Shown in pieces: positions 40,653-51,978 of a DNA stretch of 64,000 nucleotides (the stretch's first letter is position 1; each line of letters starts with the position of its first letter). The DNA is from Janthinobacterium lividum (GTDB lineage Bacteria; Pseudomonadota; Gammaproteobacteria; Burkholderiales; Burkholderiaceae_D), in NCBI RefSeq assembly GCF_034424625.1, contig NZ_CP139976.1, positions 3,720,001-3,784,000 of the forward strand, read 5' to 3'. Both the position numbers and the translations under genes were made by a program. The notes beneath the pieces were generated by a model. It had not been told where the DNA came from and did not search any database. It worked only from the letters and a program-made list of their open reading frames with translations.

Positions 40653-41351
40653 TCAGGCGGCGCGCAAGAGTGCCGCCGTATGCCCGCGCACGAGGGGCAG
40701 CACTTCCTCGCCCACGCGATAGGCTTCCTCCAGGTGCGGCGTGCTGGCCAGGATGAAGGCGTCGGCGCCCAGCTGCACCAGCTCGTCGAGGCGCTCGGCC
40801 ACCTGCTGGTAGCTGCCGACAATGCCCTGCGTCTGGCCGCCGCGCAGCAGATTGAAGCCGGACCAGATGTTCGGCGCCGTGATCAAGTCCTTGTAGCTGT
40901 TCAAGGTCGTCGGGCGGTTGCCGCGCTGGCGCGCCGCGCCCACGGAATCGCCGCCATCGGCGCCAAGGAACTGGCGCAGTGTGGCGGGATCGACGGCGTC
41001 AAAGCCCTTGCGCACCTCGTCCCATGCCTCTTCTTCCGTGGCGCGGGCCACGATGTCGACGCGCACGGCGCACTTGATCTTGCGGCCCAACAGCGCCGTC
41101 TTTTCATGCACGCGGGCGAATTTCTCGCGCAGCTGCTCGATCAAACCGCCCTGGAAGCCCGATATTTCAGCGGCGCGGGCGATCTCGGCCAGGTAGTCGA
41201 TGTAGGTAAAGCCGTCGGCGCCGCCGCCACCGAGGCCGGACTGGCGCAAGTTGTCATTGCCGGGAAACCAGTCGCCGCGAAACGGCGTGCGGGCGCGATG
41301 CGAACTCGGTTCGCCATGCGTGGGGATGCGCCAGAAGAAATCGATAGCCAT
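40653..41351 (-). pseudogene. SsuD-like LLM flavin monooxygenase with 152-codon internal deletion
   Basis: 232 residues remain in frame: 69 N-terminal (MAIDFFWRIPTHGEPSSHRA, ending GFQGG) and 163 C-terminal (LIEQLREKFARV to the end). The central part of the TIM barrel expected in this family (about 380 aa) is absent, so it should not fold or bind FMN. The break is between 41144 and 41145. The missing 152 codons lie intact in the same orientation at 51110-51565; restored length is 384 aa, normal for alkanesulfonate/methanesulfonate monooxygenases. Follows the monooxygenase gene at 41386 by 34 nt in the same operon. Confidence 0.85.
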
Positions 41352-41385: not shown

Positions 41386-42465
41386 TCAAGCCGCTTGCAG
41401 CTGCGCGCTCAACGCTGCCCGCACGCGGGGCAGCACGTGCTCGCCGATGCGGTAGGCTTCCTCGAAATGGGGAATGGCCGCCAGCACGAAGCTGGACACG
41501 CCGGCCTGCGCGTACGCCTCCAGCGCGGCGCTCACCTGTGCATAGCTGCCGACCAGGGCGCCGTGGGCGCCCGTTTGCGCTTGCGCAAAGCCGGGCCAGA
41601 AGGCTGCGGCACTGCCGTCGAATGGCGCATCGTCGGGCAGCCCTGCCCCGCTGCGGTAGCGGCGCGCATCGCGCAAGGCTTCGTCGAAGGTTTCGCGCGC
41701 CAGCACGTCGATGCGCAAGCCCGCTGTCACGGCGCGGCCCAGCTGGCGCGCCTGCGCTTGCAGGCTGTCGATGGCAGGCTGCAAATCCGCCTGCGGCGCC
41801 GCATCGAACACGTGCACGTCAGCCTGGCGTGCCGACAGGGCCAGCGCTTCGGGCGACTCGCCGGTCAGATAGATGCCGTTGACGGGATGGTTCGCCAGCG
41901 GCCCCTTGAAGCCGCCGTCCTGCACTTCGAAGAACTTGCCCTTGAAGCTGAACGGCGACGTATTCTGCACGCCGCGCGCCACCGTAATGAATTCATCGAT
42001 GCGCGGCAGGATGTCGGCCTCCGGCGCCGCATCGCCCTGGCGCCGGCGCGCGGCCGCATCGCCGCCATGGCCGATCTGCCAGGCGAAGCGCCCGCCCGTG
42101 AAGCGCTGGAAGCTGACGGCGTTCTTTGCCGCATACACGGCCGAACCCCAGGCGGCGTCGAATTCGGCGATCAGTTTCAAATGGCGCGTGCTGCGGGCCA
42201 GGTAGCCCGCGACGATCCAGCTTTCGTCGCCCTGCGTATCGTGGCGTATCTGGATGCCGTCGAAGCCGGAAAGATCGGCTGCGCGGGCGATCTGGTGCAG
42301 GTAATCGAAATAATTGAAGGGCGGACGCGCGCCGCGCGGGTCGCTCACGCCCGCCTGCAGGGGACTGGGCGCGCCGGCGGCCCGTTCGCCCCTGCGCGTG
42401 ATGCCGGGTGCCGCGTAACGGCCATCGCCGCTGGTGGGCAATTGCCAGATGAATTCTATGGTCAT
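41386..42465 (-). CDS. LLM-class FMN-dependent monooxygenase (SsuD/SfnG-like)
   Basis: 359 aa, TIM-barrel flavin monooxygenase family. N-terminus MTIEFIWQLPTSGDGRY is close to that of the broken neighbour; DLSGFDGIQIRHDTQGDES, SFQRFTGGRFAWQIGHGGD and PHFEEAYRIGEHVLPRV are family blocks. Uses reduced FMN from a separate reductase, not seen in this window, to split C-S bonds. CAGGAG precedes the ATG at 42465. First gene of a two-gene unit with the broken monooxygenase; own sigma-54 promoter at 42547. Confidence 0.85.
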   Translation of the reverse strand: MTIEFIWQLPTSGDGRYAAPGITRRGERAAGAPSPLQAGVSDPRGARPPFNYFDYLHQIARAADLSGFDGIQIRHDTQGDESWIVAGYLARSTRHLKLIAEFDAAWGSAVYAAKNAVSFQRFTGGRFAWQIGHGGDAAARRRQGDAAPEADILPRIDEFITVARGVQNTSPFSFKGKFFEVQDGGFKGPLANHPVNGIYLTGESPEALALSARQADVHVFDAAPQADLQPAIDSLQAQARQLGRAVTAGLRIDVLARETFDEALRDARRYRSGAGLPDDAPFDGSAAAFWPGFAQAQTGAHGALVGSYAQVSAALEAYAQAGVSSFVLAAIPHFEEAYRIGEHVLPRVRAALSAQLQAA

Positions 42466-42546
42466 GCATGGACTCCTGTCGTGGGTCGAAGAAAACACCG
42501 CTATGCGCTTTGGATATCTGCGCGCAGCGGCCTGCCCTTCCCTCCT

Positions 42547-42562
42547 CGCAGAAAACATGCCA
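42547..42562 (-). promoter_or_regulatory. Sigma-54 promoter of the monooxygenase pair
   Basis: Minus-strand TGGCATGTTTTCTGCG, 13 of 16 against consensus with GG and GC correctly spaced. The start site would be near 42535, giving a leader of about 70 nt. Confidence 0.65.
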
Positions 42563-42589
42563 TGCCGCATACGCCGGCCAGCCCCATTC

Positions 42590-42650
42590 GCTGTTGATTT
42601 GGCAGCAACCGGCTGCAGCCAGGGCAGCAGCATGCTGCGCGCGCAGCAGC
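42590..42650. promoter_or_regulatory. Triple GCTG-N9-CAGC enhancer array of the monooxygenase pair
   Basis: Three perfect sites, 42590-42606, 42612-42628 and 42634-42650, evenly spaced at 22 bp (two helical turns). Located about 60 to 110 bp upstream of the predicted start site and just past the terminator of the activator gene. Confidence 0.7.
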
Positions 42651-42654
42651 CATG

Positions 42655-42689
42655 AAAAAAGCCGGAGCCGCATCGCTGCGGGTCCGGCT
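42655..42689 (-). terminator. Terminator of the sigma-54 activator gene
   Basis: On the minus strand AGCCGGA...TCCGGCT (42689-42660) encloses an inner CCGC/GCGG pair and is followed by six T. It begins 20 nt after the activator stop and is a classical intrinsic terminator. Confidence 0.88.
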
Positions 42690-42709
42690 CCAGGAAGGGC
42701 ATCATGCGC

Positions 42710-43903
<1,194 letters not shown>

Positions 43904-43996
43904 GAGCCGACTATACCGCGCACCATCTCCAGGCGGGAACGAATGGTGCCGCGCTAGCTTATCCGGATTTTGCATATGCAGGCGCTGCTCCCATGC

Positions 43997-50712: not shown

Positions 50713-51978
50713 CTATACCCCTAGGCATAGCGCAAACAATTGGCGCTGACTGGCAATGCCCAGGCGCTTGTAGGCGCGCTTTTGATACGTGATCACGCTC
50801 GATGGCTGCACGCCCATGGTGTCGGCGATCTCCGCGGCCGTCAAGCCTTCGAGCACGCCGCGCAGCGCGTCGAGTTCGCGCTTGCTCAATTGCGGGCCAT
50901 GCTGGCGCAGCCGGGCCAGCATCATGGGCGAGACGCCTTGCGCGGGCTGGCCGCTCAGGCTGTAGTGGTGTCTGGCCGCATAGGCGAACAGCGGCGACAG
51001 GGTTTCGATGGCGGCGATTTCGCCGGGCTGGAACTGCCCCTGGCTGCTGTCGCGGTAGAAATTGACGGACAGCCAGATATCGCTGGCCGGCTGCACCAGC
51101 AGCGACAAACGGTTCCAGCCACGTCAGGTAGTAGTCGGCATGCTTGGACGCCGAGCCGAGGGCCGCATCGGACGAGCCGGAAAAATAGATCTCGGGGAAA
51201 TCCTGCTCCGACAGCGGCGTGGCCAGTCCCGCATCTTCCACCTGGTAGAACTTGCCCTGGTAGGAAAACGGCCCGCCGCGCCACACGCCGCGCACCACGT
51301 CGAGAAATTCCGTCGTGCGCGTGTAGCGGTCGTCGTGGCCGGCCGAATCGCCCCACCACAGCTGCGCCGGACCGCCGCCGCCCGTGATCACGTTGTACAG
51401 GGCGCGCCCGCCCGTGGCCCGCTGCAGGCTGGCCGTCATGCGCGCGGCCACCACGGGGTTCAAGAAGCCGGGCTGGAACGGGATCATGAAGCGGAAGGTG
51501 CGCGTCTCGCGCGCCAGCAGCGCAGAAATCGCCCACGGCTCGTCCGTCATGGGGAAGGACGGGAACGGTCCGACACATTCGGCTTCTGGTAACACGCGGC
51601 GCGGTAGCCGGGATGGCGGATTTCGGCGCTGGCTTGCTGGTGCAGCACGATGGCGGGATCGAGCTTCGGCTGGCGCGCGGGCGCGATGACGCTCTGGTTG
51701 CCATCGAGCGCATAGTAATGGCGAGCGTAGCTGTCGGCGATATCCTGCAAAAAGCGTCCGCCGCGCCGGTCGGCCACGGCCACCGTGCGGGGCCGGTTGC
51801 CGAACTCATAAGCAAAGATCGTGCACTGGGCGATGGAAGCGGCCGCGCCGGCGGTTTTCAGGATGGCGCCCGCCATGGCATTGACGTCGGCATGGCCGAT
51901 GGCCGCCACCAGGTCGAGGGCGCGCCCCAGATCCAGCTGTCCCTCCGCCTGCCGCCGTTCCACCTGCCAATAGCGCAT
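50713..51978 (-). pseudogene. LuxR-family regulator interrupted by a 456-bp insertion
   Basis: Starts MRYWQVERRQAEGQLDLG with GGGGAG upstream. It runs to ACYQKPNVSDR, where 456 bp of foreign coding sequence enter (51110-51565); the frame then meets a stop within a few codons. Beyond the insert it resumes with LSLLVQPASDIWLSVNFYRD and ends in a LuxR-type DNA-binding domain (LSKRELDALRGVLEGLTAAE, then SSVITYQKRAYKRLGIAS). Without the insert it is an uninterrupted 269-aa protein. As it stands no DNA-binding domain is made from the native start. Confidence 0.85.
51110..51565 (-). other. 456-bp displaced segment of an SsuD-like monooxygenase gene
   Basis: Encodes exactly 152 codons (FPSFPMTDEPWAISALLARE at one end, SKHADYYLTWLEP at the other), the central barrel portion of an LLM monooxygenase, inside the LuxR gene. 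AACGGT occurs at both edges (51108-51113 and 51564-51569). Removing 51110-51565 rejoins the LuxR frame; inserting it at 41144/41145 restores the monooxygenase (69+152+163 = 384 aa). No terminal inverted repeats or transposase. Confidence 0.85.

Follow-up and report, generated by a model that had tools for sequence, protein, structure and literature searches.

A 456-bp piece of an SsuD-like flavin monooxygenase gene lies, with its orientation kept, inside a LuxR-type regulator gene (51109 through 51564, minus strand), and the same 456 bp are absent from the monooxygenase gene ∼10 kb away, where the gap falls at 41140/41141. Positions are those of the window, the whole 64-kb stretch of DNA that was analyzed. 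Every base is accounted for: taking 456 bp out of 51109 through 51564 and placing them between 41140 and 41141 leaves 0 bases lost and 0 gained. The original prediction that a monooxygenase block sits within the LuxR gene and fits the donor gap exactly is borne out, with both junctions and the origin of the block confirmed; its coordinates (51110 through 51565) had the right length but not the right position, the exact solution lying one base to the left. The insertion joint has 6 bp in common (AACGGT) and the excision joint 2 bp (GA). Because AACGGT is present at both edges (51108 through 51113 and 51564 through 51569), as had also been predicted, the insertion point is ambiguous by 6 bp.

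Table 1. Features of the donor and target loci (window coordinates)
Feature	Position	Strand	Basis or remark
Monooxygenase gene, 3' part	40653..41140	-	In frame with the 5' part; joint 232-aa ORF
Excision joint	41139..41141	-	GA microhomology at 41139-41140
Monooxygenase gene, 5' part	41141..41351	-	ORF and comparison with relatives
Intact tandem monooxygenase paralogue	41386..42705	-	Bac_luciferase, 5.6e-36; start codon uncertain; uninvolved
LuxR-type gene, 3' part with GerE helix-turn-helix	50713..51108	-	GerE, 7.3e-11; residues 137-268 of intact relative protein, 95%
Left AACGGT copy, insertion edge	51108..51113	+	Sequence and joint comparison with relatives
Relocated block	51109..51564	-	456 bp, ~codons 71-222 of SsuD-like monooxygenase (PSFPMTDEPW...YYLTWLEP)
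Right AACGGT copy, insertion edge	51564..51569	+	Sequence and joint comparison with relatives
LuxR-type gene, 5' part	51565..51978	-	138 codons; residues 1-139 of intact relative protein, 90%

At the protein level, G000:C1:3771104-3771571 corresponds to residues 69 through 224 of the intact 384-aa protein P0001 (97% identity) and G000:C1:3760656-3761141 to its residues 223 through 384 (98% identity). The block-bearing ORF matches the Pfam family Bac_luciferase (9.5e-34), as does the shortened monooxygenase ORF (41351 to 40653), which stays in frame and encodes 232 aa against 384 aa in relatives, minus 152 internal residues. The nearest NCBIfam assignment for P0001 is to SsuD-type alkanesulfonate monooxygenases; since it scores 270.9 bits, under the cut-off of 510, our naming stops at “SsuD-like”. 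Genome searches returned the block as a single copy. Duplication is ruled out by that one copy, and editing of the 64-kb window alone by the identity of the window to the genome sequence across all 64000 bases. The broken gene is one of a tandem pair of SsuD-like genes (41386 through 42705 and 40653 through 41351), just one of which is broken; a third flavin monooxygenase, of the NtaA/DmoA family (520 bits vs. a cut-off of 279.7), is encoded close by at 43993 through 45399.

The luxR-type gene runs on the minus strand from an ATG at 51978 to its end at 50713, interrupted by the block. An interruption of the LuxR frame by 152 codons had been proposed from the letters; the length is right, but the block's own frame is not read there. 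Instead, the LuxR frame runs into the block out of phase and the ORF stops at 51547 after 143 codons, ahead of the DNA-binding half; as the block amounts to 152 codons, the downstream LuxR frame is unshifted. Judged from the reading frames, the expected consequence is loss of that monooxygenase and of the DNA-binding half of the regulator, with the tandem paralogue left.

Comparison with relatives places the change in this genome. The block was found at ≥93% identity in 12 of 60 relatives searched, all 12 of the same genus, and in these 12 its identity to the central part of the intact monooxygenase gene is 92.7 to 96.0%. All 12 were examined at the joints, and in each the block lies within the monooxygenase gene and the LuxR site is uninterrupted; comparing both loci with related genomes, a check the original prediction had called for, thus returned the ancestral arrangement every time. 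Among 40 genomes of the genus, one per species, the enzyme was detected at E values of 1e-60 or better in 16 (full length, 384 residues, in 15; split in this one), and the regulator at 1e-20 or better in 26 (≥267 of 270 residues in 25; split in this one). The rearrangement is restricted to this genome among the 40: the enzyme is intact in 15/15 and the regulator in 25/25 of the others that carry them. A natural domain architecture of the LuxR gene, named beforehand as the case that would count against a rearrangement, is ruled out; the matches over at least 267 of 270 residues in 25/25 other genomes contain no stop, and a relative whose LuxR gene naturally holds the domain was found neither at the 12 joints nor among the 25 genes.

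Across 13 aligned sequences, the block of this genome is unique at 4 of 151 codons by synonymous change and at none by amino acid; for the four flanking segments (496 codons) the corresponding counts are 13 and 4, inside the range that the relatives show. There is no extra stop or frameshift in the block or the gene segments. The lack of coding decay implies that the event is recent, or else not real, with the caveat that this decay test has little power. Old, decaying pseudogenes are unsupported by the same test of little power, no coding decay having been seen.

We scanned 380 kb of this genome for displaced matches against the corresponding regions of two relatives (G004 and G029; collinear chains of 285 and 306 kb). 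Among displaced matches, the block alone reaches at least 150 bp at >90% identity, and it alone is displaced against both relatives at high identity. At ≥150 bp, G004 gave two more displaced matches (69 to 70% identity) and G029 three more; the lower-identity matches include a few of 150 to 325 bp at 69 to 73%. Lowering the threshold to ≥100 bp added several of ∼100 to 150 bp at 79 to 95%, which we took as repeats. One of the three further G029 matches, a 1311-bp piece (G000:C1:3651648-3652957; 88%), is displaced against that relative only; as nothing in the 400 kb of G004 that were compared matches it, it is probably accessory DNA.

To set the junctions against chance, 392,600 random cut-and-paste pairs drawn from the window were simulated. 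An insertion match of at least 6 bp arose in 0.32% of them, a deletion match of at least 2 bp in 21%, and both together in 0.08%. The 2-bp GA match is within chance and uninformative alone; the reciprocal fit, base-exact and with an insertion match expected in 0.32% of random pairs, is more than chance. Both matches fall within the 2 to 20 bp in common at joints by which microhomology-mediated end joining is recognized (range as given in the consulted part of PMC8149714), the 2-bp match being one that chance would supply. Of the three explanations offered originally, relocation by microhomology fits best, with its 2-bp excision match and its 6-bp insertion match (0.32%).

Our preferred reading is a single, recent, conservative rearrangement in the chromosome of this strain, which looks like a one-off repair accident and not a new mobile element. 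Two double-strand breaks in the SsuD-like gene would have freed the 456-bp fragment, and the donor ends would have been rejoined at the 2-bp GA match. The putative linear intermediate would then have been captured, unpermuted and with its orientation kept, at a break in the luxR-type gene, where the 6-bp AACGGT may have aligned one fragment end. Joining could have proceeded by Ku/LigD or by a Ku-independent microhomology route; whichever route of end joining was taken, we regard capture of a linear fragment as evenly poised. The identical ends at excision and insertion favor one event over copying followed by deletion, and the unpermuted order of the block speaks for a linear rather than a circular intermediate. 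The reading asks for three breaks at once, a demanding requirement that counts against it.

The genome carries a Ku gene (G000:C1:4360674-4361228), as do 17 of 23 genomes of the genus searched, this one included, and 2.4 kb from it a LigD gene (L138:11928-14453) with phosphoesterase, ligase and Prim-Pol domains. These genes are the likeness to bacterial Ku/LigD end joining, a candidate pathway here; according to the part of PMC10932983 consulted, joints made by bacterial nonhomologous end joining mostly carry small deletions, whereas the joints here are clean. The consulted part of a study of alternative end joining in Deinococcus radiodurans recA mutants takes clean joints to argue against nonhomologous end joining and for the alternative route (PMC8149714). 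The clean state of the two joints in our case makes Ku/LigD the less secure half of our reading. The Deinococcus joints resemble ours in their short repeats (4 to 11 bp) and clean deletion joints, but the events are large deletions, and the consulted part of the paper does not mention reinsertion of the lost DNA. Rearrangements in Salmonella chemostats are likewise spontaneous with short matches at the joints, but they are deletions, duplications and inversions, whereas here a fragment moved with 0 bases lost; the part of that report consulted gives 22 confirmed joints of >10 bp and calls translocations rare (PMC3411829). Human cells capture ectopic chromosomal sequences at double-strand breaks (PMC5087911, in part), which shares with our case the insertion at a break of sequence from elsewhere, but in another domain of life. 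On bacterial Ku/LigD end joining, the title of Dupuy 2019 names acquisition of heterologous DNA. Within the portions of the open-licence literature consulted, we found no described case of element-free reinsertion of chromosomal pieces in bacteria.

The target word also counts against the preferred reading. AACGGT, read here from the present-day sequence, is found at the LuxR target in 0 of 20 relatives (20 of the 25 other LuxR-bearing genomes, leaving out G017, G036, G061, G062 and G063); one of the 20, L022, has AACGAT. The strain therefore already had a synonymous variant, or one base is donor-derived. AACGGT flanks the block in the manner of a target-site duplication, yet the left end of the donor piece itself accounts for one of the two copies. 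A 456-bp circle excised via GA and reintegrated by crossover at AACGGT would account for a donor base in the target word: reading the letters, such a circle would carry AACGGT at its joint, and crossover there would yield exactly the arrangement seen, in which AACGGT borders the block on either side. A circle is free to open at any point, however, and opening at its own joint would be an extra coincidence that we roughly estimate at ∼1 to 2%; moreover, a 13-bp exact match between block (51467 through 51479) and LuxR gene (51022 through 51034) went unused. We consider the circle improbable.

A copy of the block could instead have been made in luxR by template switching and the donor copy deleted later. 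Template switching typically leaves short matches at its joints, but the two events must have had identical ends to the base, and the 40 genomes, one per species, include no intermediate with both copies or with the insertion and no deletion. We hold this two-step history to be more doubtful still.

The rearrangement is known from the assembled sequence of one isolate, so that an error of the record has to be weighed, in which chimeric molecules, a minority variant or a misplaced contig or patch led to the block being assigned to a gene where it does not belong. In favor of such an error, no protein match listed resembles the rearranged product, judged by length and coverage. The best coverage was 77% among the 120 matches listed of 1102 in one search and 84% among 120 of 655 in another, both by 387-aa proteins of intact length; in a third search the best query coverage was 97% (24 of 24 matches), without the new tail. 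This absence from the protein database is weak, because no protein of this genome was recognized among the matches listed. Against an error, an assembler would normally need a repeat, and no match at the joints exceeds 6 bp; that the exchange is reciprocal and exact to the base with no repeat involved lowers the likelihood of an error, and a chimera could give one joint, both less easily. The genome consists of 2 contigs, is 100% complete and is collinear with two relatives over 285 to 306 kb, and its small-indel rates are like those between two relatives. A generally poor assembly is unsupported, given this collinearity and these ordinary rates. We judge a record error unlikely, though worth bearing in mind, and the event itself probably real.

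The undescribed mobile process suggested originally has no positive evidence: no end repeats, a luciferase-like ORF only and no second clear case. An unrecognized system for element-free cut-and-paste, shifting gene segments from one short matching site to another, would suit a move that is exact, conservative, unpermuted and in the same orientation, and an 11-nt perfect inverted pair lies near the block's ends, though not at them (51169 through 51179 and 51536 through 51546; 60 and 18 bp from the ends). Only two of the 12 relatives (L067 and L071) have an identical right arm, so the pair is probably chance. Among the 25 inverted pairs listed, of 33, none of at least 8 nt joins the very ends of the block; no repeat at the joints extends past the common 6 bp; the block ORF, which was the subject of the domain scan, matches Bac_luciferase alone, with no transposase or recombinase domain. 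These results are consistent with the earlier description of a block lacking terminal inverted repeats and a transposase. With no second clear case against the two relatives either, we regard such a system as very improbable. Integron cassettes share the core motif GTTRRRY; none was seen by eye at the joints.

Short-match rearrangements in bacteria are mostly observed as deletions, duplications or inversions. If true, the present case would be a clean natural fragment capture in a Ku/LigD-bearing bacterium, its two scars preserved and free of signs of age, and would illustrate how domains may perhaps be transferred from gene to gene with no mobile element involved. Should the record be in error, the case is a useful warning that near-complete genomes can contain reciprocal errors that are exact to the base. 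It is a speculative and rather unlikely extension that end-joining bacteria occasionally make conservative moves in which a few hundred bases of a gene are excised and inserted, unpermuted, into a second gene at a short match, as an element-free cut-and-paste route by which protein domains are passed on.

The strand structure of the insert region is ordinary (z 0.04). A perfect 12-bp inverted repeat (51090 through 51101 and 51635 through 51646) brackets the LuxR target, with a spacing of 77 bp without the block. In the sites of 20 relatives, the pairing holds for 12/12 letters in 13, 11/12 in 4 and 9 to 10 in 3. This repeat is probably a coding constraint; a hairpin near the break could also have formed.

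Shortened forms of this regulator exist in other records: internal stretches are missing from P0121 and P0123, and P0133, P0138 and P0143 combine a short length with changed ends. Three of the five are named Janthinobacterium. These are predicted proteins from a search confined to ∼79 to 250 aa, and therefore biased to short forms, and against them stands the intact regulator gene in 25/25 other regulator-bearing genomes of the genus. The short forms suggest, as far as predicted sequences go, repeated loss of the regulator; they hint that such loss is tolerated, so that an accident of this kind could persist.
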